From a virus: a stretch of 30,787 nucleotides of DNA. The first letter of the stretch is position 1. Each line of letters begins with the position of its first letter. Below the pieces are notes generated by a model. It was not told the origin of the DNA. It did not search any database and worked only from the letters and a program-made list of their open reading frames with translations. The stretch covers positions 1 to 30,787 of IMG/VR virus record IMGVR_UViG_3300024301_000057. One strand, 5' to 3'. Positions 1 through 27,138 of the stretch are shown here, in pieces. Both the position numbers and the translations under genes were made by a program.

Positions 1-381
1 GCAGTACAGGAAAAGAGAATCGAAGAGAACATCAAGGCATTGATGGCCGAAGGAATGGACTTTGAGGGTGCACTAGCAATGACCGCAAAGATGGATGTTG
101 GTTCCAACATGGTTACTGGTGAACATCCAGATGGAAGTTTCGGTATTGACAATTTCAAAGGGGAGAGACTTGACCAATTGAAAAGTTCTAGTCCGGACTA
201 TAATAACTTTGACAAACAGGTTGACTTCGTAAAGAGCGAACTAAATACAACCAAGGCGGAAGTCAAAGCAAACATGGGTAATAGTCTTACCAGTAAAATC
301 AAAGCAACATCCGAAGGACAAAATGTTCAACAGATTGCGAATAAAGTATATGAACTCAATGACAAGTATGGGGGTGGTTGA
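1..381 (+). CDS. Partial tail-lysozyme-like protein (5' end outside window)
   Basis: The frame is open from base 1 to the TGA at 379-381, so the 126 visible residues are the C-terminus of a gene that starts upstream. The stretch HPDGSFGIDNFKGERLDQLK (residues 42-61 from the window edge), followed by a Q-x-x-F-V-x-x-EL pattern, resembles phage tail-tip lysozyme domains, where a G-S-x-G-I-x-Q-W-x-G-x-R segment follows the catalytic AESG. Here the corresponding upstream site reads MDVG, so the usual Glu may be replaced by Asp (residue 32). If the assignment holds, this would be a peptidoglycan-directed hub component used during tail penetration. It overlaps the next gene by one base (TGATG), which fits translational coupling. 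The family call rests on pattern memory and the active-site reading is uncertain; an unrelated structural protein is possible. Confidence 0.5.
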   Translation, partial: AVQEKRIEENIKALMAEGMDFEGALAMTAKMDVGSNMVTGEHPDGSFGIDNFKGERLDQLKSSSPDYNNFDKQVDFVKSELNTTKAEVKANMGNSLTSKIKATSEGQNVQQIANKVYELNDKYGGG

Positions 382-2423
382 TGTCTGTTAGAACTGACAT
401 AAAACAGGCCCTTGATATAAAATTAACGAGGGATGGTCAAAACACCACACTCTCAAACGAAATCAAAAAAGCCAAAGAATCTGAACTGGTTAAGAATGCG
501 ACTATTCTTGGTCAGGAAGCGGGGAAGGTAGAGAAGGGTTTCAAGAATCTTGAGACAGCAGTCTCTTCTGCCGGAACGTTTGAAGCAAAGGGCGAAGCGC
601 TGGTAGAACTAACCGATCAGGTTGACGGTCTTGGTAAGACGTTTGATCGTGCAGCTACCGATATCAATTTAAGTGTTCCCGAATTGGGTGGAATTTTCGG
701 TGAGGGTGAGGGAAGTCTTGAGAATCTTATTGATGGACTTGGATCCGGTGACTCAGCTTCACTGTTAGACGGTCTTACCTCTACGGTAGAGGCAATCGGT
801 GGTGACATTGCGGGACAGATTGCACAGATCATCACACTCCTAACCGGACTCGGTGCAATGCTTGATAACCTTAGCGCTGCGGGTGTATCTGGTAGTGGTA
901 TGGATGCATTGTCTAAGACTGGGGAAACAATGGCTGCAAAGGCAGATGGACTCATGGGAAGTCTGGAAACTGCAGCGGGTAGTCTGAGTAGTATCTCCGA
1001 TGTTTCTAGTTTATCAGAATTGACCGGAACAATCAACAACTTTGCACAAGATATTAGTAATGTTGCGAGTGAAATATCTGCGATTCAAAATATCAACCCT
1101 GCATCCGAATTCACCAACAACCTCTTACAGGATGATGTTGGCGGACTGTCAGAACTTGGAAAGACATTTGAAGATGCGAAGTCAACGGTTGACGGAATTA
1201 CAGGTGAAGTCAATAGTGTTCTTGCCGAGGTGGACAAAGCTAAATCTTTTGTAGATGAAAATGTTAGTAAAGCAAGAGGTTTAGTGAATGAGGGGAAGGC
1301 TCTAGTTGGTGATCTTCAGACCGGAGGGGGTAAGTTACAAGACCTCGCTGAGAACACAACCCTGCAAGCCTCTGGTAAGGTCAATGACCTTCTTGGCGCA
1401 ACAAGTCTTCGTGGTACAGGAGTAACTCCTAAACCCCAAGGCGGTGGCGGCGGAAGAGGTGGTAGTGGTAGTCTGAGTAAATCAGCAATATCCAATGTCA
1501 TCAAACAAACACAAAGTGGTGCTCCTGTCGATCTTGCGAAGGCAGTTCAGACCGTGGGTGGTGGAAACGTTGGTGTCGATCCTTCAATCAAACCCATCCT
1601 CGCTAAACAAAAAGGATTCTCTAATACACGTGAGTTGGTAGAGAAGGTTGTCGCAGAATGTAAAACTAAAGGAATTGATCCAACTTTGATTAGTGACTTT
1701 GTGAAAGTCATGGGTGTCGTGGAAGTGGGTGTTACCACAATCGACACAACAATCACAGACCAAATTAAAGTCGGTTCTCAGGAAAGAAGTATCTGGAAAG
1801 AGTCTTTCGATGTTGTTGGTTATCCAAGAGAATTTGATACGTATCAACGGTTTGAGACAGGGGAAATTACTGCAGCGACACAGGCAAATTCGGTTACCGC
1901 AGAAAAGAAACCTATTGTATTCCAGACGTGTGATACCAAAGAAGAACTTCAGGCTGAGGTTCGTCTATTCAAACGTGAGATTCGATCTTTGATCATTCAC
2001 TCTACAGAGTCGTTTAAGAATCAATACTTGACTGCAGAGATGTTACACGAAGATGCAAAGGCCCGTGGATTCCCCACCATTCAGTATCACTATGTAATTC
2101 GCAGAGATGGTACGATGCAGAGGGGTATTCCAACAACATTGATTTCAGAACTTGACCCTAGAGAATACAGAAACACATCCATCAACATTGCTATGGTCGG
2201 TGGTATTGATGCGCCTAGTGGTACAGAGGGTGCAAACTCGTTTAGATCGGGTAACTCGTTCACTCTTGCACAGTATCAAACTCTAGACACTTTCCTAGAT
2301 ACATTCTTTAAAGGATATCCTGGCGCCAAAGTATATGGTTATGGTGAACTGGTAGATACTACTAACGAACCGTACTTTAACGTGGAGAAATATGTGCAAA
2401 GGAAATTTGGTAAAATACGATGA
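381..2423 (+). CDS. Tail hub protein, long helical N-terminus plus C-terminal amidase-like domain
   Basis: This is a 680-residue protein from the ATG at 381; a TTG lies one codon upstream, but the ATG follows a GGGGGTGG stretch and overlaps the previous stop. Residues 1 to about 350 are Ala/Ser/Gly/Leu-rich and predicted helical, with many short heptad-like segments. A Gly-rich linker with five consecutive Gly follows at about residues 353-366. The C-terminus (about 530-680) looks like an N-acetylmuramoyl-L-alanine amidase (Amidase_2/PGRP fold): LIIHST with His540, QYHYVIRRDGTMQRG with Tyr569 where T7 lysozyme has its catalytic Tyr, then SINIAMVGG. The second zinc ligand, normally the His of a G-H-R segment, reads VYGYGE with Tyr654, and no CPG-like third ligand is evident. 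The domain may therefore bind cell wall without cutting it. It lies directly before the spike gene, which fits a role in the hub or central tail tube. The T4 gp5 lysozyme role may be divided among this and its neighbours. Confidence 0.65.
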   Translation: MSVRTDIKQALDIKLTRDGQNTTLSNEIKKAKESELVKNATILGQEAGKVEKGFKNLETAVSSAGTFEAKGEALVELTDQVDGLGKTFDRAATDINLSVPELGGIFGEGEGSLENLIDGLGSGDSASLLDGLTSTVEAIGGDIAGQIAQIITLLTGLGAMLDNLSAAGVSGSGMDALSKTGETMAAKADGLMGSLETAAGSLSSISDVSSLSELTGTINNFAQDISNVASEISAIQNINPASEFTNNLLQDDVGGLSELGKTFEDAKSTVDGITGEVNSVLAEVDKAKSFVDENVSKARGLVNEGKALVGDLQTGGGKLQDLAENTTLQASGKVNDLLGATSLRGTGVTPKPQGGGGGRGGSGSLSKSAISNVIKQTQSGAPVDLAKAVQTVGGGNVGVDPSIKPILAKQKGFSNTRELVEKVVAECKTKGIDPTLISDFVKVMGVVEVGVTTIDTTITDQIKVGSQERSIWKESFDVVGYPREFDTYQRFETGEITAATQANSVTAEKKPIVFQTCDTKEELQAEVRLFKREIRSLIIHSTESFKNQYLTAEMLHEDAKARGFPTIQYHYVIRRDGTMQRGIPTTLISELDPREYRNTSINIAMVGGIDAPSGTEGANSFRSGNSFTLAQYQTLDTFLDTFFKGYPGAKVYGYGELVDTTNEPYFNVEKYVQRKFGKIR

Positions 2424-16318: not shown

Positions 16319-18739
16319 ATGGCACGTCCAATTACAGCTTTAACAGATTCGTTTAAGATTCTTAGAGACAATCTTAACACCATCTCTAACAATGTCGGCG
16401 ACCCTGATCTTCTGACTACTACGTCTAGAGCCTTCACTGAGGGTAATACCGATGTTGCACAGAGATCAGACTCTTCCGATGTTGTAAGTGCCTTAAACGA
16501 ACTAGATTCTGACCTTCACGGGCTTGGCGGTGGTGATGTCAAGAACGATCTGAACTACCTCTCGTATGCGATTAATCGTGTACGTGACAGTGGTATGACG
16601 GGTGCGATCAATGCCATCGACGCATATATCGGTGGTGACTCCGATACTCTTAATGTTGAAGCGAATACAATCAGGGATGCGATCAACGAGATCGAAGCTG
16701 TCTTTGATGCAAGTACACTCAAGATCAATGCGGGAGGTAACTTCCGGTTTGATGGTGCGGGTGACCTAGAAGTCAACTTGGATGGGGGTGATGTTACCTT
16801 CCTCAAGGACTCTGAACAGTACGCACAACTTACTTTAGGAACAACAACCACACTCGACATTACTGTTGCGGGTAAGATCGTAACAGCAGATTCGACTGGT
16901 GGTACATTTGAGATCGATGCAGGGGGTGACATCACCCTTGACGCAGACGGTAACCAGATTCGATTCAAGAACGGTGCGGGTGGAGACGAAGTAACTCACA
17001 CTCTTGCAGACGATGCAACCTACGAGATTGACGCACCTTCTACTTACACAGTGGACGCAGTTGGGGACATTATCCTTGACGCAGACACAGGCAGAGTACG
17101 TATCAAAGACGGCGGGACTGAGGCTTATAACTTCCAGTCCAACGGTATCGTAACCTCTGCGAATGCTCTATTCGTCAATGCATCTGACTTCACCCTGAAC
17201 ACAGACAGTGCGGGTGTTGCGACTATTTCGTTTACGACTGACAGTGCGAACAGAATTGTCTACACATTGACTCCATCGAATCAAACGATGGCAGTAACAA
17301 ATGACTTGACAATTGACGCTTCTCGTGATATAATCCTAGATGCTGCCGGAGCGGATATAGATATGCAAGTTTCTGGTACATCCAGAATCAAGCATACTAT
17401 GGGTGACAGTAATACCGTTGCGGTAACTGGACACTATACTCTCGACGCATCTCAAGACATCATCCTTGATGCGGGTGGAGACAACATCTACTTTGCGGAT
17501 GGTGGTTCTAAGAGATTTACTTATACTCTTGGTACGAACCAAGAAATCGACGTTGTAGGTAACCTCACCTATGACGTGGCTGGTGACATCAACCTAGACG
17601 CTGGTGGTAATACGGTTAACCTGAAAGGTAACGGTACAACCAGAATCTCACACGAATTGGGTGCGACAAACACTACCACAGTAACAGGTAATCTGACAGA
17701 CAGTATCTCTGGTGACTACATTCGAACTGTAGGCAATCAGACGATTACTGACAGTGATTATACTCACACATCGAATACAGCCACTCACAACACTACAGGT
17801 GATTTCACCGTAGACGCAGAATTGGATATTGTCCTTGATGCAAATGGTGGAGACGTATTCCTTAAAGACGGTGGTACAACCTACGGTTCTTTGACTGCGA
17901 CAGGTTCTAACCTGATCGTCAAGTCTGGTACGACTACTGCACTGACATTCTCTGGTGCGAACGTAACGACTGGTGGTACAGTAACCACAGGTGGTAATGT
18001 CACGATGGGTGGCACAACCATTTCAAGAACTGGTGTGTTGACCCTTGACGTTTCGTCTAACATTAACCTTGACGCTGGCGGCGGTAACATCTACCTCAAA
18101 GATGATGGTACTCAGTACGGTAACCTAAAGTGGGGGGTTGGAGACAACCTTATCATTCAGTCTAAGAATGTCACTGCGGTAACATTTGACTCAGGTGAAC
18201 GTGCAACATTCGCTGGTGATGTTTATCAAGGTACTTCGCTCAACACCGAATCCGGTCACTTGGGTGGTGCGATCAACGAAGTCCATGATCAATTAGATTC
18301 TGCAGCCGGAGAGATTGCACTTCATGCGGGAAGACTAAATACCCTAGAATCTGAGATGGATTCCAACGAGACCCTTCTTGGTGCTACTCTACTTTACAAT
18401 GTAGATAATCCTTATAGTTGGGTTAAGTCTACTCCGGTTAAGACTGCAATCAATGATCTAGATAGTGCAGTTGGTACGTTATCTGATCTGGATGGAACCA
18501 CATTCGTATCTGCCTCAGACAAGGCAAATGTTGTGGCTGCACTCAACGTGCTTGCGGGTGACGTACAACAACTTCAAGACAGCGCTGGAACACTGGACGC
18601 TAGAATCGGATCACTTGCAAACCTTGCTGCATTCTTTGATAGTGCGGGAGCGACTGCAAGTATTGTAAACGCCCTGAACCATATGGCAAGTAGAGTAGTG
18701 GATATCTATGATGAGAATGGCACTCTCTTAAATACTTAA
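16319..18739 (+). CDS. Fibre-like structural protein with beta-repeats
   Basis: This 806-residue protein starts immediately after the previous stop (TAGATG). The N-terminus (ARPITALTDSFKILRDNLNT, then SNNVGD and DVVSALNELDSDLHGL) is helical. The middle, about residues 155-600, holds repeats centred on D-I-x-L-D-A-G-G-x-x-I-x-(F/L)-K-D-G-G; seven clear copies are seen. Such Gly/Asp-rich repeats predict a beta-solenoid or triple-beta shaft, typical of trimeric phage fibres. The C-terminus (about 640-806) returns to helical, coiled-coil-like sequence with repeated 'INDLDSAVGTLSDLD' and 'VVAALNVLAGDVQQLQDSAG' segments. Strong enrichment in Asp and Gly and lack of Cys fit an extracellular structural protein. 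A role as tail fibre or fibre shaft is inferred. Confidence 0.7.
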   Translation: MARPITALTDSFKILRDNLNTISNNVGDPDLLTTTSRAFTEGNTDVAQRSDSSDVVSALNELDSDLHGLGGGDVKNDLNYLSYAINRVRDSGMTGAINAIDAYIGGDSDTLNVEANTIRDAINEIEAVFDASTLKINAGGNFRFDGAGDLEVNLDGGDVTFLKDSEQYAQLTLGTTTTLDITVAGKIVTADSTGGTFEIDAGGDITLDADGNQIRFKNGAGGDEVTHTLADDATYEIDAPSTYTVDAVGDIILDADTGRVRIKDGGTEAYNFQSNGIVTSANALFVNASDFTLNTDSAGVATISFTTDSANRIVYTLTPSNQTMAVTNDLTIDASRDIILDAAGADIDMQVSGTSRIKHTMGDSNTVAVTGHYTLDASQDIILDAGGDNIYFADGGSKRFTYTLGTNQEIDVVGNLTYDVAGDINLDAGGNTVNLKGNGTTRISHELGATNTTTVTGNLTDSISGDYIRTVGNQTITDSDYTHTSNTATHNTTGDFTVDAELDIVLDANGGDVFLKDGGTTYGSLTATGSNLIVKSGTTTALTFSGANVTTGGTVTTGGNVTMGGTTISRTGVLTLDVSSNINLDAGGGNIYLKDDGTQYGNLKWGVGDNLIIQSKNVTAVTFDSGERATFAGDVYQGTSLNTESGHLGGAINEVHDQLDSAAGEIALHAGRLNTLESEMDSNETLLGATLLYNVDNPYSWVKSTPVKTAINDLDSAVGTLSDLDGTTFVSASDKANVVAALNVLAGDVQQLQDSAGTLDARIGSLANLAAFFDSAGATASIVNALNHMASRVVDIYDENGTLLNT
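16928..18100 (+). repeat. Protein-level DIxLDAGG repeats in the fibre gene
   Basis: Seven copies of a [D/N]-I-x-L-D-A motif start at 16928, 17066, 17327, 17456, 17585, 17825 and 18059. The spacings are 46, 87, 43, 43, 80 and 78 codons, that is about one or two times 40-43 residues. Most copies are followed by G-G-x-x-[I/V]-x-[F/L]-K-x-G-G. The DNA of the copies differs at many synonymous positions, so they are old repeats. Confidence 0.75.
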
Positions 18740-18754
18740 TAAAAGGACGGTGGA

Positions 18755-21244
18755 ATGCCAATTGCGAAAAGTAAACCGCTTAAACTCCAAAGTCCGGATC
18801 AAGGCGATTTAAAGAGATTAAGTAGTACCGAAGAAAACTATCTGTCATATCTGGTAGGAACTCATCTTGTCGAAACAAGTAGCGATATCGGTGATATTAC
18901 GCTTACTTCGACAGGCAATACTTCTATTGGCTCTCATTTAGATACTTTCTTTAATCAGGCGATAGGTACACACCCAGGCTCTTCGATCACTTCAGGAACA
19001 ACGGAGACCACCCTCTATCAGGTTGCGGGAACTGCATCCGAAACCGATTCGGACTTCCGTAAACCAGTCTCATACTATAATCCTCCGACAGACGGGCCTA
19101 CCAGTCTATTGGAGGGTGTGCATGAGATGGCAGATTCAGACATGAACCGTTTGGTTGACCGTCTCAACGGCCGTATCGCACTATCTGATTATATTGGTCA
19201 ATATAAACTTGGTTCTTCTTCGCCTGGCGGAGACTACACCACACACATATCTAACGTGTTCTCTGATACTCTCAATAGTGGACTTGTTGCTAATTATAAC
19301 ATATATCGTAGAACAACGCAAGCACAACCTACCAGTATTTTAGACAGTGATGGTACTGTAACCGCACTCATGTCTATTAAGAGAAGTAGCGGCCGCACAG
19401 GAACATATCAGGGTGTTGAACGGATGACGAACCGACAGATGAAAATCTCGTTGGGTCAACGTGCGAAGACTAGACGTGCAATTGCAGATAGTATTGGGTC
19501 TTATCAATTAAGGTCAAGTTCTCAGGGCGCACCTCTGACGGGTTCTTGGAGAGCCGTTGGTACTGCGACTGACACTAAACAAATCTTGGAAGAGACTGCA
19601 TATACTCGTACAAGAGTTTCGACTTACAATAGAGACCGAGCTTCAACCTATACTCGTGTATCGACACGCACCAGTACTAGAGACTTTGCTGGAGATTATG
19701 TAGGTAACTACTCAAGAACGTTTGAAGGTAATTATAACAGAACCTTCGTGGGTAATTATGTAGGCGACTTCATTGGTAACTACACCCGAACCAGACTCTC
19801 CATTTATAACAGAACCAGAACTTCTGCATACACTGGTGACTATGTTGGTAACTACACTAGACTCTTTGGTGGTAACTATACCAGAGGCTTCCTTGGAGAA
19901 TATGCCAGAAACTTTGCGGGTGACTACACAGGCAATTACTCTAGAAACTTCGAAGGTAATTATTCTCGTGCTTTTACTCGGACTAGAGCTTCTAATTATA
20001 CCAGAACGTCAACCAGAACGTCAACCCGCACAAGAACTTCTGCATATGCTGGTGATTTTGTTGGTAACTATGGTCGTTCTTTCACAGGGAATTACAGTCG
20101 TGGTTTTGTAGGAAACTATGGTAGAACCAGAGTATCCTCTTATTCCCGAAACTTTGCAGGAAACTTTTTAGGCGAATATACACGTACATCAACACGTACA
20201 TCGACAAGAGATTTCACCAGAGATGCGATTTACCCTGACTATACTCGCACAAGTGTCCGTGATGGGTACTACTTTAGATTTGGAAACCCCGATACTTGGT
20301 CTGAAGTTCAGACCTTTATCGGCCCTGCTTATTATACGGGTAACTATACATTATCTCCTAGCTTTATAGGTAATTATACTACAGTTAGGTCTTCTGCTGT
20401 ACAGTATGGTAGACTTATATTTTATATACAAGGCCCAGATAACGTAGATGCCGAAGGATTTCCTATCGGCAATATGTACAGTCGTTTTTTGTACTATGCC
20501 AGAACAGCATTCTACACTGGTAACTATACAAGAACCAGCATTACTTCTTTTACGGGTAACTACTTAGGAGACTATGCTGGTAACTTTTTAGGTGATTACA
20601 CTCGTACATCAACACGTACAAGAACGTCCGGTTATAGTAGAAACTTCGTAGGTAATTATAGTAGAACCAGAAATTCAGCATACTCACGCACCAGAAACTC
20701 AACGTACACACGTACCTCAACCCGAACAAGTTCTACAGATTTTGTTGGAGACTTTGCGGGTAACTTTGTTGGTGATTATGCTAGGGACTTTGTTGGTAAC
20801 TATTCACGATCATATACCAGAACAAGAGTCTCGGCCTACACCAGAAACTCTACTCGGACACGTCCCTCTACATATTCAAGAACAAGAGTCTCTGCCTATA
20901 CTCGTGGACGGGCATCCGCATACTCAAGAACCAGAATTACTGACTACTCACGTGATTTTATCGGGGATTACTCTAGAGGTTTCTTGGGGAACTACACAAG
21001 AAACTCACTAAATACCTTTAGTCGAGATCGTGTATCTGCATACTCCAGAAATAGAGACTCCACATATGCCAGAACGAGCACACGAACAAGGGTTTCCAGT
21101 TATGCAGGAGACTTTACTGGTGATTATGCTAGAACCTTTGTCGGAAATTATTCCAGAAGTTTCTTAGGAAACTACGTTGGAACCACGATTGGTTCTTCCA
21201 CTTCAGTCATTGAAACGTACACCTTGTATGTTCGATATGCATAA
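18755..21244 (+). CDS. Tetrapeptide-repeat structural protein A
   Basis: This 829-residue protein has a good ribosome site (AGGACGG) before its ATG. The N-terminal 280 residues are a globular, modular region: LSSTEENYLSYLVGTHLVET, GDITLTSTGNTSIGSHLDTF, YQVAGT, HEMADSDMNRLVDRL, YKLGSSSPGGDY and YQLRSSSQGAPLTG. These modules resemble adhesin-type modules of marine phage structural proteins. From residue 283 to about 808 the sequence is an almost strict four-residue repeat, such as YVGN-YSRT-FEGN-YNRT-FVGN, with variants STRT and R-x-S-x. The repeat is interrupted near residues 500-590 by non-repetitive segments. The C-terminus ends in YTLYVRYA. It is a close paralogue of the next gene (shared N-terminus, repeats, central island and C-terminus). 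A fibre or adhesin role is inferred; the molecular function is unknown. Confidence 0.75.
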   Translation: MPIAKSKPLKLQSPDQGDLKRLSSTEENYLSYLVGTHLVETSSDIGDITLTSTGNTSIGSHLDTFFNQAIGTHPGSSITSGTTETTLYQVAGTASETDSDFRKPVSYYNPPTDGPTSLLEGVHEMADSDMNRLVDRLNGRIALSDYIGQYKLGSSSPGGDYTTHISNVFSDTLNSGLVANYNIYRRTTQAQPTSILDSDGTVTALMSIKRSSGRTGTYQGVERMTNRQMKISLGQRAKTRRAIADSIGSYQLRSSSQGAPLTGSWRAVGTATDTKQILEETAYTRTRVSTYNRDRASTYTRVSTRTSTRDFAGDYVGNYSRTFEGNYNRTFVGNYVGDFIGNYTRTRLSIYNRTRTSAYTGDYVGNYTRLFGGNYTRGFLGEYARNFAGDYTGNYSRNFEGNYSRAFTRTRASNYTRTSTRTSTRTRTSAYAGDFVGNYGRSFTGNYSRGFVGNYGRTRVSSYSRNFAGNFLGEYTRTSTRTSTRDFTRDAIYPDYTRTSVRDGYYFRFGNPDTWSEVQTFIGPAYYTGNYTLSPSFIGNYTTVRSSAVQYGRLIFYIQGPDNVDAEGFPIGNMYSRFLYYARTAFYTGNYTRTSITSFTGNYLGDYAGNFLGDYTRTSTRTRTSGYSRNFVGNYSRTRNSAYSRTRNSTYTRTSTRTSSTDFVGDFAGNFVGDYARDFVGNYSRSYTRTRVSAYTRNSTRTRPSTYSRTRVSAYTRGRASAYSRTRITDYSRDFIGDYSRGFLGNYTRNSLNTFSRDRVSAYSRNRDSTYARTSTRTRVSSYAGDFTGDYARTFVGNYSRSFLGNYVGTTIGSSTSVIETYTLYVRYA
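19601..21180 (+). repeat. Four-residue (12-base) repeat tract in protein A
   Basis: Residues 283 to about 808 are written in units of four with Tyr or Phe first, Gly or Arg third, and Asn, Asp, Glu, Thr or Ser around them: YxGN/YxGD, YxRx, FxGN, RxSx and STRT. Codons for the same unit vary widely (for Gly-Asn-Tyr: GGT AAC TAC, GGT AAT TAT, GGC AAT TAC, GGA AAC TAT, GGG AAT TAC), so the repetition is far clearer in protein than in DNA. Confidence 0.9.
20282..20332 (+). other. 17-residue island interrupting the repeats of protein A
   Basis: After YYFRF, a 17-residue non-repetitive segment (GNPDTWSEVQTFIGPAY) precedes the return of the repeat at YTGN. Protein B has a segment of the same length at the equivalent place, after YYVRF (23361-23411). 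The shared frame YYxRF-17-Y suggests a homologous structural element, such as a kink or a small binding loop. Confidence 0.65.
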
Positions 21245-21247
21245 ATA
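21240..21247 (+). promoter_or_regulatory. Variant late promoter before protein B
   Basis: CATAAATA followed by GAG overlaps the stop codon of protein A and lies 34 bases before the ATG of protein B. It differs from the T4 late consensus only at the first base and has the same position relative to its gene as the exact copies at 4525, 7908 and 26735. Confidence 0.5.
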
Positions 21248-21281
21248 GAGGAAGAACTAACGATATGGATGAGAAATTTTA

Positions 21282-24200
21282 ATGTCTTCGAACATACCAC
21301 TAAAACTAGAAGGAACGAATGGCGATCTTCAGGAGATGACCTCTACTGAAGAGAACTATTTGGCCTATGTGGTTGGTAAGGATAACCTAACAGGAACATC
21401 CAATGATGTGAGTGACATCACACTGACATCTGCTGGCAACACAACCATTGGTTCATATGTAGATACGTTTTACAATCAAGCGGTTGGGACACACCCTGCC
21501 TCTTCGATTACTGGCGGATCAACCACAACGACTGTTTACCAGACTGCGGGAACGAAGACACCCTCATCTGGTTCTTTGCGTCCTGTTGGTTATACGACTG
21601 TTAGTTCAACACCAAGTTTATACGAAATGAATGACTCGGACATGAATGTCCTTGCAAGAAGACTTAACTCTCGTATCGCAACTTCCGACTATCCTGGCGT
21701 ATTCAAACTCGGATCGTCTTCGCCTGGCGGAGATTATGCAGCACACATTGCCGGTGTCTTTACTGATACACAGACCGATGGTACAAGTGTAACATACAAC
21801 ATTTATCAGAGAAATGCAATGACTGCACCAACTACGGTCAGACCTATTGGTCTTCGTAGTGATGGTGATACTCAAGAGATGGCGGATTCAGACATCTCTG
21901 ATAGTATTGGTGCGTTCGTAAGAAATATTCGTGCAACGGCTGGTGAGATTGGTTCTTATCAGTTGCGTTCTGCTTCGCAGGGTGCACCTACAGATGCTGG
22001 TACGTGGACTGCGGTAGGTACTGCCACAGACACTAAGAAAGACACAGCTGAGACATCATACACTAGAACACGTACCTCAGCTTATACTAGAAACCGTGCA
22101 TCGACATACACAAGGGATCGTGTTTCTACCTACACAAGAAACTCGACACGTACTCGCACGTCAAGTTATCTTGGGGATTATATCGGGGATTACACTCGTG
22201 GGTTTATCGGAAACTACAGCCGAGACTTTGCGGGGGATTATGTCGGGGACTATGTTGGTAACTATGCCAGAACTCGCACATCAACATACACCAGAAATAG
22301 AGTAACCAACTTTGCCGGTAACTTTATTGGCGACTATACTCGCACACGTGTTTCATCTTATACTAGAGATCGTGTTACCAACTTCACTCGTGATCGTGTT
22401 TCTACCTATAATAGAACAAGAACCTCTACGTATTCAAGAACTCGCATCACCGATTATGTTGGCGACTTCATTGGTAACTACACCAGAGACAGAATTTCTA
22501 CCTACTCAAGAACTCGTGTATCATCTTATGCGGGTGATTATGTAGGTAATTATAGTCGTGCATTCCTTGGGAATTACTCTAGAGATTTCGCAGGTAACTA
22601 CGCAAGAGACTTTGCAGGCGACTATCTTGGTAACTATGCAAGAACTTCTACTAGGGATTCTACTCTAGGTAGAGATTCTACTTATTCAAGAACGTCAACT
22701 CGTACAAGAGTTTCAACTTACACAAGAACACGTGCAACCAACTATCAACGCACACGTAATTCAGCTTACACAAGAAATTCGACTCGTACCAGAACTTCGA
22801 CTTATACCCGTGACAGAGTAACTAACTTTGCTGGTAACTTCGTAGGCAACTATGCGAGAAACTTTGCAGGCGACTTTGTGGGTAACTACGCCCGTGGATT
22901 CTTGGGTAACTATGTTGGTAACTTTGTGGGTAACTACACTCGCACGGGTTATTATGCCGGTGACTTTGTTGGAGAATATTCTCGTACAAGAACTGCTACG
23001 GGTGATTATACTCGTAACAGTACACGTACAAGTACACCAACCGGAAACTATCAAAGAACCAGAACTGCAACAGGTACGTATACTCGTACCTCTACCAGAA
23101 CAAGTACTCCGACTGGCACATACACTCGTACAAGAACTGCAACGGGTACGTATACTCGTGTATCGACACGTACAAGAACTGCAACGGGTGATTATACTCG
23201 TGTTAGAGCGGCAACGGGTACGTATACTCGGGCCCGTGCTGCAGGGGTTGCGTATACTCGCAACCGTGTTGGTGCGGTGGCTTATACCAGAACCAGAGTT
23301 GCTACGACTAGTTACACAAGAACTCAGAACTACGCCCGAACACTGTATTATGTTCGGTTTAATAATAACCCTTATGAACCAGACGTTTTAACTTATACTA
23401 GTATTGGATATTATGCACGGACAACTAGTTACAACAGATCGGCATCATATACGGGTAACTACTCTCGTAACGTAACGTATGCGGGTAACTATGCGAGAAC
23501 TGTGTACTACACTGGAAACTACACGAGAACCCTGTACTACACAGGTAACTACACGAGAACTCTATACTACGCTGGTGACTTTACGGGTAACTATCAAAGA
23601 ACCCTGTACTACGCTGGAAACTACACGAGAACTCTATACTACGCTGGTGACTTCGTGGGTAACTACACGAGAACTCTGTACTACGTTGGTGATTATACCC
23701 GTACTCTATACTACGCTGGTGACTTTACAGGTAACTATACGAGAACCCTGTACTACGTTGGTGATTACGCAAGAACGTCTACACGAACATCTACACCAAC
23801 ATTAGATTACACACGTACTCGTGCAACTGATTATACGAGAAACAGAAGTTCAGCTTATACTCGCACATCAACTCGTACTCGTGGTTCTGCATATACCCGT
23901 GACAGAGTAACTGACTTTGCCGGTAACTTTGCGGGTAACTACGCAAGAAACTTTGCTGGTGATTACACAGGCAATTACTCTCGTGGATTCCTTGGTGATT
24001 ATGTGGGTAACTTCGTAGGTAACTATGCGAGAAACTTCGCAGGCGATTATGTGGGTAACTATTCTAGAAGTTTCCTTGGCAACTTCGCAGGTAACTTTGT
24101 GGGTGAATACACAAGAACATCCCTAAGAACTCGTACTTCTTCCTACAACCGAACAAGAACTTCAGCATACACCAGAAGCAGAACATCTGCTTACGCAAGG

Positions 24201-24755
24201 ACATCTACCCGTACAAGTACGAGCGACTTCCTTGGTGAATACACTCGTGGGTTCTTGGGTAACTACACAAGAAACAGTCTTAATACATTTACTGGCAATT
24301 TCTTGGGTAACTATTCACGAGACTTTGCTGGAAACTACTCAAGAACATTCACAGGCGATTACTTGGGTAACTTCATCGGTAACTATACCCGTGGATTCCT
24401 TGGGGAGTATACTCGTGATCGTGTGACTGACTTTGCCGGTGACTTTATTGGTAACTACTCACGTGACTTTGTGGGTGAGTATACCAGAACTTCACTACGT
24501 ACCTCGACCCGCACAAGACTTTCGACCTACAGTAGAACTCGTTTGTCTACTTACACACGGAATAGTACACGTGATAGTACTAGAGACTTTGCTGGAGACT
24601 ATATAGGTGATTACCAGAGAACCTTTACTGGTGATTATTCTAGAGAATTCTTGGGTAACTACTCTAGAAGTTTCTTGGGTAATTATACAGGTACAACTAT
24701 TGCGGCCACTTCTAGTACGATTCAAACGTACACTCTTTACGTAAGGGCAGCTTGA
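21282..24755 (+). CDS. Tetrapeptide-repeat structural protein B
   Basis: This 1157-residue protein is a longer paralogue of the preceding gene. The N-terminal 259 residues share its modules: MTSTEENYLAYVVGKDN, SDITLTSAGNTTIGSYVDTF, YQTAGT, YEMNDSDMNVLARRLNSRIA, FKLGSSSPGGDYAAHIAGVF and YQLRSASQGAPTDAG. Residues 260 to about 1136 are the four-residue repeat, with three local variants: six-residue units such as RTATGD and STPTGN (about 580-660), a central island after YYVRF, and a ten-residue unit YYxGNYTRTL (about 722-831). The C-terminus ends in YTLYVRAA, like protein A. It is strongly enriched in Tyr, Arg, Thr, Asn and Gly, poor in Lys, and has no Cys. No signal peptide or membrane segment is seen. 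A surface fibre or adhesin is the likeliest product. The following genes encode a glycosyltransferase and an oxygenase that may modify it. Confidence 0.75.
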   Translation: MSSNIPLKLEGTNGDLQEMTSTEENYLAYVVGKDNLTGTSNDVSDITLTSAGNTTIGSYVDTFYNQAVGTHPASSITGGSTTTTVYQTAGTKTPSSGSLRPVGYTTVSSTPSLYEMNDSDMNVLARRLNSRIATSDYPGVFKLGSSSPGGDYAAHIAGVFTDTQTDGTSVTYNIYQRNAMTAPTTVRPIGLRSDGDTQEMADSDISDSIGAFVRNIRATAGEIGSYQLRSASQGAPTDAGTWTAVGTATDTKKDTAETSYTRTRTSAYTRNRASTYTRDRVSTYTRNSTRTRTSSYLGDYIGDYTRGFIGNYSRDFAGDYVGDYVGNYARTRTSTYTRNRVTNFAGNFIGDYTRTRVSSYTRDRVTNFTRDRVSTYNRTRTSTYSRTRITDYVGDFIGNYTRDRISTYSRTRVSSYAGDYVGNYSRAFLGNYSRDFAGNYARDFAGDYLGNYARTSTRDSTLGRDSTYSRTSTRTRVSTYTRTRATNYQRTRNSAYTRNSTRTRTSTYTRDRVTNFAGNFVGNYARNFAGDFVGNYARGFLGNYVGNFVGNYTRTGYYAGDFVGEYSRTRTATGDYTRNSTRTSTPTGNYQRTRTATGTYTRTSTRTSTPTGTYTRTRTATGTYTRVSTRTRTATGDYTRVRAATGTYTRARAAGVAYTRNRVGAVAYTRTRVATTSYTRTQNYARTLYYVRFNNNPYEPDVLTYTSIGYYARTTSYNRSASYTGNYSRNVTYAGNYARTVYYTGNYTRTLYYTGNYTRTLYYAGDFTGNYQRTLYYAGNYTRTLYYAGDFVGNYTRTLYYVGDYTRTLYYAGDFTGNYTRTLYYVGDYARTSTRTSTPTLDYTRTRATDYTRNRSSAYTRTSTRTRGSAYTRDRVTDFAGNFAGNYARNFAGDYTGNYSRGFLGDYVGNFVGNYARNFAGDYVGNYSRSFLGNFAGNFVGEYTRTSLRTRTSSYNRTRTSAYTRSRTSAYARTSTRTSTSDFLGEYTRGFLGNYTRNSLNTFTGNFLGNYSRDFAGNYSRTFTGDYLGNFIGNYTRGFLGEYTRDRVTDFAGDFIGNYSRDFVGEYTRTSLRTSTRTRLSTYSRTRLSTYTRNSTRDSTRDFAGDYIGDYQRTFTGDYSREFLGNYSRSFLGNYTGTTIAATSSTIQTYTLYVRAA
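23361..23411 (+). other. 17-residue island interrupting the repeats of protein B
   Basis: The segment NNNPYEPDVLTYTSIGY follows YYVRF and is followed by YARTTSYNRS. It has the same length and flanks as the island in protein A (20282-20332). Both contain Pro and acidic residues near their start and a Thr-aromatic pair in the middle. Confidence 0.65.
23445..23775 (+). repeat. 30/42-base tandem repeat (YYxGNYTRTL units)
   Basis: About ten consecutive units of ten residues (YY-x-GNYTRTL) or fourteen residues (with an added DF-x-GN) lie head to tail. Unlike the rest of the tract, the DNA is nearly identical between units: ACGAGAACTCTATACTACGC occurs exactly in at least two units, and ACGAGAACCCTGTACTAC in others. 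This indicates recent amplification by duplication or unequal recombination. Confidence 0.8.
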
Positions 24756-24826: not shown

Positions 24827-25300
24827 ATGAGTTATAGAAAATGGATGGATAATGCGTTCTGGGAAAACGACGAAAAGGAAATGCTTAACTGCATCCTTGA
24901 GATGGAAGATGATGTCGGACGTGTTACCCGTCAAGTAATGAAACTTCGTAAGGCCGATGACGAAGGTAATGTAAACCCCGACTTCGCAGAGGTTGTTGAA
25001 CTTCTTGGTGAATCCATCATCGATGAGAATACAACTGAACGTAACTCACGTAAGAAGCGTGAAGCAGAAGAAGAAAAACAACGTGAACTTGAACACGCCA
25101 AGGCACGTAAATTAGAACAACTCTTTAACTACAAGCTCGAAGCGTTTGAGATTGAGGATATCAAGAACTCTAAGAATCGTCAACTCAAGTCCAAACTTCG
25201 ACGTGCAAAGAATCGTGTAGAGGTAGACCTCTATGCAATTATGATTGTCATGGAAGAAATGAAGCGCAAAGAAGAGGAAGCTGCGAGTGGAGAAGAGTAA
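24827..25300 (+). CDS. Conserved charged helical protein of unknown function
   Basis: This is a 157-residue protein from an ATG with a consensus ribosome site. The N-terminus (SYRKWMDNAFWENDEKEML, then NCILEMEDDVGRVTRQVMKL) is followed by an acidic stretch and, at about residues 68-118, a highly charged coiled-coil-like helix (RNSRKKREAEEEKQRELEHA and onward). The C-terminal part includes FEIEDIKNSKNRQLKSKLRR and a second helix. I recall similar small proteins in marine T4-like phages, without a function. It is led by a sigma70-like promoter and overlaps the glycosyltransferase gene by 14 bases, so it is probably co-translated with it. It could be a regulator, scaffold or partner of the two enzymes; nothing in the sequence decides this. 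Confidence 0.75.
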   Translation: MSYRKWMDNAFWENDEKEMLNCILEMEDDVGRVTRQVMKLRKADDEGNVNPDFAEVVELLGESIIDENTTERNSRKKREAEEEKQRELEHAKARKLEQLFNYKLEAFEIEDIKNSKNRQLKSKLRRAKNRVEVDLYAIMIVMEEMKRKEEEAASGEE

Positions 25301-26015
25301 AGGTTATGTAATTGTCGCATCCAAGAAGATCAACTTTTATCGATATGCGGTCAACCTTGCAGAGTCTATTCTAGATTTTTACGAAGACGCAAAGATCACT
25401 CTAGTCTGTGAAGAGTGGATGTTTGAGGAAGTCCATCGTGAACTTTTCGATCAAGTAATCTGGTGCAACAATCACTATCGTGCGAAACTGTGGGGCATGG
25501 CAAAGTCTCCCTATGACCTCACGATGTATATCGATGCCGATATGGAATGTGAACACGGAGATATCGAACATGTCTTCGAAGGACTAGGCGACAACGATGT
25601 CATGTTCACTGCACTCACAGATGATCGTGAGTATGTTTATGCAGAACGTAGATTCGACAGTCCCGAAGGTGAACAAATCTTCACCCTCTGTGGTGGTGTC
25701 TGTCTGTACGATATGTCTAAACCTATCGTGAAAGAATTTATCTGGGACTGGTGGGAACTGACTAGACGACAGATGGATCATGAATGGTGGCCTGAAGGTT
25801 ATGGTGAGAGTCTTCGTTCTTGGGATCAATTCTCCTTGTGGTGGTTGGTTGAGAAAGAACCGAAGTACAAAGACTTGAAGGTAGGAATCTTTGAAGAAGA
25901 CCTCCGTTGGAATTTCTACAACGCTCTGAATGAAGCAATAACACCCGCTCCTGAATCTGGTATTGTCTTGAGACACTACTCTTCTGGTTTGGATAAAGAC
26001 GGTTATATTTTATGA
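25287..26015 (+). CDS. Glycosyltransferase, GT-A fold (GT8-like)
   Basis: This 242-residue protein starts at GTG, with GAGGAAG about seven bases upstream; no ATG is available near the N-terminus, and the start lies 14 bases inside the previous gene. The N-terminus GYVIVASKKINFYRYAVNLA (residues 6-25) and the strand AKITLVCEE begin a Rossmann-like nucleotide-sugar fold. YRAKLWGMAKSPYDLTMYID leads to the D-x-D metal site, Asp83-Ala-Asp85. Further family-like features are FTLCGGVCLYDM (132-143), SWDQFSLWWLV (178-188) with the conserved Asp-Gln, and His230 near the C-terminus. It should transfer a sugar from a nucleotide donor to a protein or other acceptor in the infected cell. It overlaps the oxygenase gene (ATGA). 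The acceptor is unknown; the adjacent Tyr/Thr/Asn-rich repeat proteins are candidates. Confidence 0.75.
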   Translation: MEKSKGYVIVASKKINFYRYAVNLAESILDFYEDAKITLVCEEWMFEEVHRELFDQVIWCNNHYRAKLWGMAKSPYDLTMYIDADMECEHGDIEHVFEGLGDNDVMFTALTDDREYVYAERRFDSPEGEQIFTLCGGVCLYDMSKPIVKEFIWDWWELTRRQMDHEWWPEGYGESLRSWDQFSLWWLVEKEPKYKDLKVGIFEEDLRWNFYNALNEAITPAPESGIVLRHYSSGLDKDGYIL

Positions 26016-26710
26016 GTATGAGAACTATCCCTATCAACAGTCAAGAGTTGATTGATCTACTCAATCAATATGTTGATATTGCTAATCATGAAGCATTTGA
26101 GGATAACGTTCATGTTTGGTGTGAAAATCAGAATGATGTGGGTCACAAAGAAAAGTGGACTGGTGATGAATATCTAAACCACTTGCGATATGTCGAAGGA
26201 GAATCCCACGAAGGATTCCCTGATCACATGGTCGCTCGTTCCTTCAAACCAAACCAACCCGAAGAAATGATCAAGGCTTTCGAAAGAGATTCCGATCCTA
26301 TTGTGAGGAAAGAACTTCTAGATAGGATATATAAAGCCAATGAAGAGATGATGTTGTTTCTGGGTACGAGAAACAATGCATTATGTGCGTACTATCCCCC
26401 CGATGGATATATCTCATGGCACACCAACTGGAATGCTCCAGGCTACAACCTGATCTTCACTTGGTCTGAGACTGGGGAAGGTTGGTTTAAATATCTCGAC
26501 CCCAAGACCAACAAGGTTGTGCACTGTCAAGACCAGCCCGGATGGCAACTGAAGGCGGGATACTTTGGTCACATTAGAGAGAAGGATAAGATTGTCTACC
26601 ATGCAGCCTCAACTGATTGTAGACGTATCACCGTATCCTTTATCTTCTCAGCAAATGATATGTCCCTCGATCTCCAAGAAGATGTTATTTCTGAAATAAC
26701 CGGAGAATAA
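26012..26710 (+). CDS. 2OG-Fe(II) oxygenase
   Basis: This 232-residue protein starts at ATG overlapping the previous stop. The C-terminal half has the double-stranded beta-helix pattern of 2-oxoglutarate/iron(II) dioxygenases: CAYYPPDGYISWHTN (about 125-139), GYNLIFTWSETGEGWFKYLD (144-163), WQLKAGYFGHI and VYHAASTDCRRITVSFIF (195-212). Likely iron ligands are His137 and His197, and Arg204 or Arg205 would bind 2-oxoglutarate. The usual H-x-D reads His137-Thr-Asn139, so the acidic ligand is replaced by Asn. The N-terminal half (VHVWCENQND, WTGDEYLNHLRY) matches, from memory, a family of such oxygenases in marine T4-like phages. Prolyl or other residue hydroxylation of a structural protein is the usual suggestion. 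Only its position after the glycosyltransferase and the repeat proteins hints at the substrate. Confidence 0.75.
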   Translation: MSMRTIPINSQELIDLLNQYVDIANHEAFEDNVHVWCENQNDVGHKEKWTGDEYLNHLRYVEGESHEGFPDHMVARSFKPNQPEEMIKAFERDSDPIVRKELLDRIYKANEEMMLFLGTRNNALCAYYPPDGYISWHTNWNAPGYNLIFTWSETGEGWFKYLDPKTNKVVHCQDQPGWQLKAGYFGHIREKDKIVYHAASTDCRRITVSFIFSANDMSLDLQEDVISEITGE

Positions 26711-26778: not shown

Positions 26779-27138
26779 ATGGCGACTTACGAAGAACTAC
26801 TCATAGATCAAGGCGCAGACGTTGCGATTGAGATCGAACTGGTTGAACAGGACGGGTCTAAGAAAGACCTGACTGGATTTTCTGCTGCCGCAAAAATGAA
26901 AAGAAGTTTCAACTCCACGGACAGTGATGAGATCGTAGATTTCACCGCTGTCATTGGCGATCCTGCTGCGGCCGGAGTTGTTGTCCTCTCCCTCACAAAC
27001 ACCCAAACCGATGCGCTGAATACTCGTGGAAGATATTTTTATGATGCAGAGATTTCTTTCCAAGACTCCGATGGTAATACTATTATCGAAAGAGTACTGG
27101 AAGGCAAAGTAAAAGTATCACCTTCTGTGACAAGGTAA
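26779..27138 (+). CDS. Small beta-sandwich structural protein
   Basis: This is a 119-residue protein. The N-terminus (IDQGADVAIEIELVEQDGSK, then KDLTGFSAAAKMKRS) resembles the immunoglobulin-like N-terminal domains of phage baseplate upper proteins and fibre-base proteins, where a 'D-x-G-x-D-x-x-x-x-x-x-L-x-x-x-D-G-x-x-x-D-L-T-G' pattern opens the fold. The end, RYFYDAEISFQDSDGNTIIE followed by VLEGKVKVSPSVTR, gives the last strands. It leads a late operon of four fibre-type genes and could be the adaptor that anchors them to the baseplate. A GGGA just before the ATG is the only ribosome-site candidate. The Ig-like assignment is from pattern only. Confidence 0.7.
   Translation: MATYEELLIDQGADVAIEIELVEQDGSKKDLTGFSAAAKMKRSFNSTDSDEIVDFTAVIGDPAAAGVVVLSLTNTQTDALNTRGRYFYDAEISFQDSDGNTIIERVLEGKVKVSPSVTR

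Follow-up and report, generated by a model that had tools for sequence, protein, structure and literature searches.

Candidate giant fibre proteins of a T4-like phage locus: tetrad-repeat arrays with two mirror-paired arms

The window analysed here is a virus record of 30,787 bases (IMG/VR record IMGVR_UViG_3300024301_000057), and this report concerns two adjacent genes in it, open reading frames (ORFs) A and B, which encode giant repeat proteins. T4-like baseplate hub and wedge genes come first in the window, followed by a 1907-amino-acid (aa) phrog_358 gene, a fibre-like ORF, A, B and small genes. Both ORFs are intact: ORF A (18755-21244, plus strand) encodes 829 aa and ORF B (21282-24755, plus strand) encodes 1157 aa, and residues 4-336 of B share 58 % identity with A. 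The segments distinguished in the two proteins are as follows, with the basis of each assignment in brackets.

18755-19600, plus strand: ORF A, predicted N-terminal anchor domain, residues 1-282 (AlphaFold; profile self-similarity)
19601-20224, plus strand: ORF A, arm 1, residues 283-490, proposed outgoing tetrad strand (held-out pairing; shuffle z 12.0)
20225-20551, plus strand: ORF A, putative tip, residues 491-599, mostly irregular (midpoint listing; unpaired)
20552-21175, plus strand: ORF A, arm 2, residues 600-807, proposed returning strand (held-out pairing)
21149-21244, plus strand: ORF A, predicted C-terminal closing strand, ending in ETYTLYVRYA and overlapping the end of arm 2 (confidence from residue 801, see below)
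21282-22040, plus strand: ORF B, predicted N-terminal anchor domain, residues 1-253 (identity to A; alignment A1)
22041-23291, plus strand: ORF B, arm 1, residues 254-670 (held-out pairing; shuffle z 19.2)
23292-23453, plus strand: ORF B, putative tip, residues 671-724, around RFNNNPYEPDVL (midpoint listing)
23454-24704, plus strand: ORF B, arm 2, residues 725-1141 (held-out pairing)
24705-24755, plus strand: ORF B, putative C-terminal closing strand QTYTLYVRAA (sequence)

Tetrad arrays and mirror pairing of the arms

The arrays of A and B are built of tetrads of the form [Y/F/R/S]-x-[G/R/S]-x. An earlier note on this DNA had described two huge proteins in a near-perfect four-residue code, with the array starting at residue 283 of A (nucleotide 19601) and ending at about residue 1136 of B (nucleotide 24690). 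The arrays were found at these positions; the code is broken by one irregular stretch in each protein near the array midpoint (A 491-599 and B 671-724). When identity autocorrelation was compared with 200 shuffles, the lag-4 peak expected from the note was obtained in both proteins (A z 5.2, B z 9.0). Lag 8 was stronger (z 14.4 in A and 18.0 in B) and B peaked at lag 24 (z 22.8). Thus, the working unit is two or more tetrads and not one. Units of the form [YF]x[GR]x keep a single register in A (80 of 89) and two registers in B (70 and 57 of 149). Across 89 distinct family sequences, a set that takes in the window pair as well as five members of a second repeat family, the lag-4 comb persisted to lag 120 and YxR directly followed YxR in 33 of 4090 cases. 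A beta-solenoid with one fixed rung was rejected as these sequences have no common period (commonest best lags 12, 8, 24, 28 and 44). A meander turning at each G[ND] was also rejected by inspection, the spacing being too short and irregular.

The repeats of A and B are real and under selection. When A was compared with three orthologues and B with four, identity was 85.1 % (of 1080) at tetrad position 1 and 89.7 % (of 947) at position 3, versus 45.2 % (of 1080) at position 2, 52.7 % (of 946) at position 4 and 67.9 % (of 2771) outside the repeats. The proportions of synonymous differences were 0.62-0.99, i.e. saturated. Indels of even length made up 360 of 433 in the arrays and 79 of 197 elsewhere, a difference to be read with the aligner's own partial preference for even lengths. 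The arms are net basic and rich in Tyr, Arg, Gly and Ser.

When the two halves of each array were compared, residue i was found to predict residue S - i, where S is a constant, so that the arms are related in mirror order. Residues 283-490 of A paired ungapped with residues 600-807 (held-out score 185.6; the best antidiagonal apart from it scored 72.9), and residues 254-670 of B with residues 725-1141 (327.3 against 140.0; S = 1393, zero-based); the z values listed above come from 60 octad shuffles of each protein. Mutual information between odd-face residues at i and S - i peaked at 0.60 bits over a background of about 0.2. On the odd face the best shift (s) fell within +1 to +4 in 39 of the 48 usable proteins, this range having been fixed after a pooled scan, and four of the 52 proteins had too few pairs. 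The same range was reached in one of 47 proteins with parallel pairing, in 2/45, 3/48 and 0/45 with arm 2 taken from another protein, and in 2/45 and 0/46 with an octad-shuffled arm 2. The even face gave a weaker signal (21 of 48) and set the register at s=2, or at s=1 in one subgroup. The two-faced strand proposed in the earlier note therefore agrees with these results: odd positions are conserved, even positions drift, and both faces covary with the partner strand, the odd face more clearly.

A pair matrix trained on 37 of the 39 proteins with a best shift of 1-4 (L013 and L029:5058 omitted) gave favourable log-odds for Y:Y (+2.3), R:F (+1.9), R:G (+1.9), R:S (+0.9), D:I (+2.5) and D:V (+1.7), and unfavourable ones for R:R (-1.9), Y:G (-2.2) and F:G (-2.4). 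These values bear both ways on the cation-pi stacking suggested earlier, as the favoured register places an excess of Arg across from Phe, Gly and Ser, and an excess across from Tyr is seen only when the register is moved by one step. When the training proteins were limited to those with less than 5 % of 10-mers in common (leave-relatives-out), the best antidiagonal lay at the sum predicted from the anchors in 44 of 52 non-redundant proteins, and the longest arms have 932 residues each (L037). A simple pairing rule derived from the whole family was obeyed by 85 of 104 odd-face layers in A and 159 of 209 in B, versus 60 and 91 at the best other tested shift. Class changes among orthologues coincided at paired sites (37 of 91 changed arm-1 sites; odds ratio 7.7). 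No DNA inverted repeat of at least 20 bases was found in B, and in each of the two genes reverse-complement matches between the arm DNAs reach no more than 9 bases. Thus, the symmetry lies at the protein level.

A second repeat family, with MSYGL-like N-termini and weaker tetrad stretches, was observed upstream of the main repeat gene at five loci (L016, L021, L022, L040 and L048). Its mirror scores (33-54) are below the shuffle mean of A (88.3), own shuffles not having been made, and no hairpin is claimed for it.

Mid-chain break and anchor domain

The array midpoint was defined by two conserved motifs outside the array, the W after a QGAP-like motif and the T in YTLY. Both motifs (the third anchor pattern) were present in 84 of 121 distinct sequences, giving 52 non-redundant proteins; the other 37 lacked one motif, many being cut by contig ends. 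The first pattern had covered 22 proteins (16 geometries) and the second 54 of 121 (37 non-redundant). With the first pattern, the midpoint fell in an irregular stretch in 6 of 16 (2.0 expected) and the arm correlation was 0.36 (13 proteins). With the third, mean regularity at the midpoint was 0.278, versus 0.740 (standard deviation 0.041) at random positions, and the averaged profile was almost symmetric around the midpoint. Most members are broken at mid-chain, the midpoint being less regular than the protein's own average in 46 of 52.

The array midpoint of B is RFNNNPYEPDVL; measured up to it, the two arms have 456 and 453 residues. The midpoints of relatives have GGTGYEPE, PAPYGS, GGGKGG or a non-repeat stretch. 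The mid-chain stretch takes about 109 residues in A and roughly 90-155 non-repeat residues in many relatives. Among 16 rows of tip landmarks, ten mark tight turns, and their arms differ by at most 8 residues (456/453, 435/431, 448/445, 281/285 and 795/794, for example). Six rows (L141:560, L042:7995, L010, L013, L035 and L044) were set aside with the motif off the tip or within a tip domain, and the correlation of arm lengths over all 16 rows was 0.86. The landmarks were chosen after the midpoint listing, and the equal arms illustrate the geometry and do not test it. Arm 1 varies by 29 and arm 2 by 28 residues among five B-type proteins, the one in the window included.

A total of 109 non-repeat stretches of at least 45 residues fell into 39 clusters; the 109 include some irregular repeat stretches, anchor pieces and stretches of the second repeat family. 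Sub-cut-off Pfam matches were PA14/GLEYA in L069 (off the tip), fn3 in L049 and DUF5023 in L142. Giant single-chain versions occur in L056 (phage C48C1; 14995-25038, 3,347 aa) and L049 (4298-16003, an open frame of about 3,900 codons), both with several non-repeat inserts that were placed on one hairpin arm. The B orthologue at L005 (8001-11517) occupies two frames that overlap (815 and 368 aa), through either a frameshift or an assembly error.

An AlphaFold model of A was made with 30 sequences as alignment input and its predicted local distance difference test (pLDDT) values were averaged over ten-residue blocks. Block means were mostly 80-96 over residues 11-280 (weaker blocks 77, 55 and 74) and 61, 89 and 97 from residue 801 to the C-terminus. 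Two long predicted strands (265-291 and 799-827) flank the array, with low confidence at their array-side ends. The structural matches of predicted A cover 44..829, and this range, with both ends confident, is consistent with both chain ends lying in one domain. Accordingly, the model predicts one anchor domain containing both ends of A, in which the two end strands may pair. The C-terminal motif of A recurs at the end of the repeat ORF in most relatives. Within the anchor, modules 2 and 3 (104-200 and 198-290) are similar to each other (profile self-similarity probability 94 %), and module 1 shows weak similarity (76.65 % to module 3 and 5.99 % to module 2). The structural matches of the anchor are weak MABP/beta-prism ones (2qp2, 3tow and 6u23; Z 6.6, 5.7 and 3.8, all below 8), from which no functional link is implied, and they are not borne out by the scores of Foldseek itself, which found no match in BFVD and PDB at E ≤ 0.001.

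Distribution and linked genes

Among 50,697 named phage records, the sole match to A or to the anchor of B was Phage C48C1 (Kyanoviridae); this search was run with a low-complexity filter and relatives having another anchor would escape it. In IMG/VR, at least 55 loci carry relatives of the A/B type. The C48C1 protein WJE88074.1 (OQ984149), annotated as a hypothetical protein, is a homologue of A (36.5 % identity over 97 % of A), and homologues of the three genes following A and B adjoin its gene. Neither A nor B had a match when scanned against Pfam and PHROG, and a PDB sequence search with A gave chance-level matches (best E-value 0.04, a dehydrogenase). Of the 30 members of alignment A1, at most 8 match unnamed PHROGs (phrog_22039 and phrog_15773, 8 members each, best E-values 2.3e-5 and 3e-5; phrog_22557, 2 members, best 3.1e-9; phrog_30731, 2 members, best 1.1e-6), and one weakly matches a tail fibre family (E-value 0.04). 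A genome-contig scan for the repeat pattern returned 21 pattern matches and no relatives. No description of the family was found among the open-licence papers listed, as judged by title and start of abstract.

Four genes downstream of B are conserved neighbours.

24827-25300, plus strand: conserved charged coil-like protein, 157 aa (found in 46/57 records)
25287-26015, plus strand: GT-A-like (glycosyltransferase-like) protein with an invariant DxD (D83, D85), weak assignment (alignment A2; PF00535 weak)
26012-26710, plus strand: oxygenase-like protein with an invariant HxN...H...R (motif resemblance; alignment A3)
26779-27138, plus strand: conserved neighbour with a match to an L-shaped tail fibre assembly family (phrog_3304, E-value 3.6e-13; best match phrog_1084, unknown function, E-value 6e-19)

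The coil-like, GT-A-like and oxygenase-like genes follow the repeat gene wherever contigs reach. The first two lie 3' of it in 46 of 57 records and the oxygenase-like gene in 42 of 57, the 57 including the window and near-copies. In the 11 records where the first two are missing, the sequence stops within the repeat ORF. The oxygenase-like gene is missing from four more, which break off in the GT gene or on its final bases. When the GT-like protein was used as the anchor of the search (80 best of 98 matches), a repeat ORF was found upstream in 76 of 77 loci with at least 1.2 kb of upstream sequence; three were too short. A different protein of 422-423 aa precedes the GT and coil genes in L105 and L106. 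L105, counted as positive, has its repeat ORF 4.3 kb upstream with another C-terminus, and L106 is negative with a short upstream stretch. Among the named phage records, the coil-like, GT-like and oxygenase-like genes match C48C1 only.

GT-A glycosyltransferases carry a DxD motif, and both Asp residues are invariant in 31 aligned members of the GT-like protein. PF00535 matched the window protein below the curated cut-off (E-value 3.9e-4), and while 26 of 31 members match it weakly, 21 of 31 match the unrelated ExbD about as weakly. The usual motif of 2-oxoglutarate-Fe(II) oxygenases is HxD...H...R. In the oxygenase-like protein HxN...H...R is invariant: where iron would putatively bind, all 33 aligned members carry HxN instead of HxD. 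PF13640 was not matched in 10 records, oxygenase PHROGs were weakly matched by 2 and 1 of the 33 members, and neither the GT-like nor the oxygenase-like protein, nor their profiles, had a convincing match by sequence in the PDB.

Two further ORFs upstream of A were noted. The fibre-like ORF at 16319-18739 (806 aa) has recurring (I/V)xLDAGG-type motifs and resembles regions of Pelagibacter phage HTVC008M, for which one record's annotation is baseplate wedge initiator (29.2 % over 55 %). The ORF at 378-2423 (681 aa), immediately upstream of the baseplate hub gene, has a C-terminal amidase-like stretch (phrog_822, E-value 5.1e-21).

A proposed folded-back fibre and its alternatives

In our view, A and B are likely to be giant fibre proteins encoded by a T4-like phage, each an out-and-back antiparallel ribbon with a two-end anchor, a mid-chain tip and a tetrad pairing code, and each probably forms a host-contacting fibre of the virus. 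The repetitive beta fibre, one of two possibilities raised in the earlier note, is thus the preferred one, and the searches with A and B led to no characterised family. The mid-chain fold-back, the two chain ends in one predicted domain and the linked gene set go beyond that note. The anchor would be formed from both chain ends, with the array inserted between its last two strands. The chain would leave it as one beta strand, turn at the tip and come back antiparallel. The tetrads would act as the pairing code, in which odd-face residues match their partners on the opposite strand (Tyr to Tyr, and Arg to Phe, Gly or Ser), and the variable, Ser/Thr/Asn-rich even face would probably be solvent-facing. 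If fully extended, the ribbon would be about 69 nm long in A and 138 nm in B. Host contact would be made by the tip, a tight turn in B and in A a largely irregular stretch of about 109 residues; in some relatives one arm would bear further domains. We infer a tail location because baseplate wedge genes lie upstream and a fibre-assembly-like gene downstream; the anchor would sit at the baseplate. The chains may oligomerise, and the linked enzymes may modify the exposed face.

Several results weigh against this proposal. The monomer prediction called for in the earlier note was confident at both ends of A but not in the arrays (blocks mostly about 25 in A; 28.9 for B 260-551 modelled alone). The odd face alone leaves the register uncertain by two residues (s=2 scores about as s=4) and it is the even face that decides for s=2. 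Five of the 44 proteins with the predicted sum are barely above the runner-up (L027:124, L042:7995, L135:800, L141:560 and L143:1089), and 12 of 44 have a top segment with more than 280 unpaired residues between its arms. The best antidiagonal lies elsewhere in 8 of 52. Six of these (L027:3272, L049, L056, L082, L085 and L088) have a strong hairpin at another sum; in our reading, inserts or shifts on one side have displaced the same hairpin (L027, L049, L056 and L082 were inspected). L072:39, which is cut, misses the sum by one or two, and L142 is too weak to call. The co-change signal is partly general, as its control with the partner shifted by 16 also exceeded 1 (odds ratio 2.6), and in 6 of 52 proteins regularity at the midpoint equals or exceeds the protein's own mean (L029:5058, L069, L074, L135:800, L142 and L143:1089). 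A ConA-like lectin domain in L049 (PF13385, E-value 1.2e-15, above cut-off) counts in favour of the proposal; that it lies on an arm and not at the tip lowered our confidence slightly. The tips of L022, L039, L044 and L081 had no Pfam match (10 stretches scanned, 6 blank). With the domains of L049 and L069 off the tip and these tips unmatched, variable host-contact tips are a suggestion and not a result.

The same out-and-back fibre could stand elsewhere on the virion, as a head or neck fibre or a whisker making reversible surface contact instead of binding a receptor. Further tail-fibre-like genes downstream would fit this, but the flanking wedge and fibre-assembly-like genes favour the tail, and we regard another site as unlikely. 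Slightly less likely still is an antiparallel homodimer, in which extended chains lie head to tail and residue i pairs with S - i of the other chain, placing a central mid-chain domain in a double-length filament with an anchor at each end. It would yield the same i+j=S signal, and the monomer prediction is compatible with strand exchange. However, both ends of one chain of A were confidently modelled and matched within one range, B and relatives have turn-like mid-chain features (NNNPYEP, GGGKGG), and a baseplate fibre would need one anchored end.

The other possibility raised in the earlier note, a sticky, phase-separating Tyr/Arg low-complexity coat, follows the sticker-and-spacer model for disordered phase-separating proteins. 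The composition, the net basic arms and the very low AlphaFold confidence of the arrays agree with it. On the other hand, the order of tetrad classes is retained at saturated synonymous divergence, array indels are mostly even (in part an aligner effect), and the arms pair in mirror order where parallel, cross-protein and shuffled controls fail. Since composition alone would neither keep tetrad order nor give mirror pairing, and order itself is conserved here, we consider such a coat very improbable. There is a negligible chance that the pattern simply arose from recent expansion of DNA repeats and means nothing structurally: short direct matches between the arm DNAs exist (longest 18 bases in A and 21 in B), but the pattern stands at saturated synonymous sites, duplication gives no mirror-order protein pairing and no DNA inverted repeat was seen.

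Among known systems, the folded-back fibre would most likely work like the C-terminal needle of T4 gp37. The iron-binding motif of the gp37 stem is HxH, and A and B contain none. In gp37, domain D11 at the long tail fibre tip is inserted in D10; the two arms of its stem comprise residues 882-931 and 960-1009, His residues bind iron atoms, and a mid-stem tip (932-959) is the probable receptor-binding pole (PMC6957217), and the needle is formed by three chains as a six-stranded antiparallel structure (PMC9659904). A and B resemble gp37 in a stem that is predicted to be inserted in a two-sided anchor, and in two apparently symmetric antiparallel arms with an insertion at the tip. Unlike gp37, whose arms have 50 residues, the arms have 208 residues in A, 417 in B and 932 in L037, and they follow a regular tetrad pairing code. 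With regard to the D10 collar fold, the anchor of A gave weak beta-prism matches. We do not claim membership in the gp37-type needle because HxH is absent and both trimer and collar are tentative here; a trimer with six strands, as in gp37, is a guess. The triple-stranded beta-helix of T4 gp5 also has a regular (octapeptide) beta repeat in a phage needle (PMC3004832), whereas the chain of A and B appears folded back with i+j pairing. C48C1 WJE88074.1 differs in its single chain of 3,347 residues with several non-repeat inserts, and, unlike a collagen-like phage fibre, A and B have no run of five G-x-x.

On balance, we lean towards a new class of fibrous protein, in which arm 2 would be the antiparallel complement of arm 1, a protein counterpart of complementary strands. 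Register, tip and length would be readable from the sequence over up to 932 residues per arm, and the class would have its own GT-like and oxygenase-like assembly enzymes. To our knowledge, long protein ribbons with self-encoded strand register have not been described. If the proposal is true, the sequences of uncultured phages would show how long their fibres are, where the tips lie and which decorations are one-sided, and the code would offer a rule from nature for designing regular beta fibres of great length. It would also point to the host-recognition tips of a phage group that occurs at no fewer than 55 loci in IMG/VR and was matched by one of 50,697 named records.

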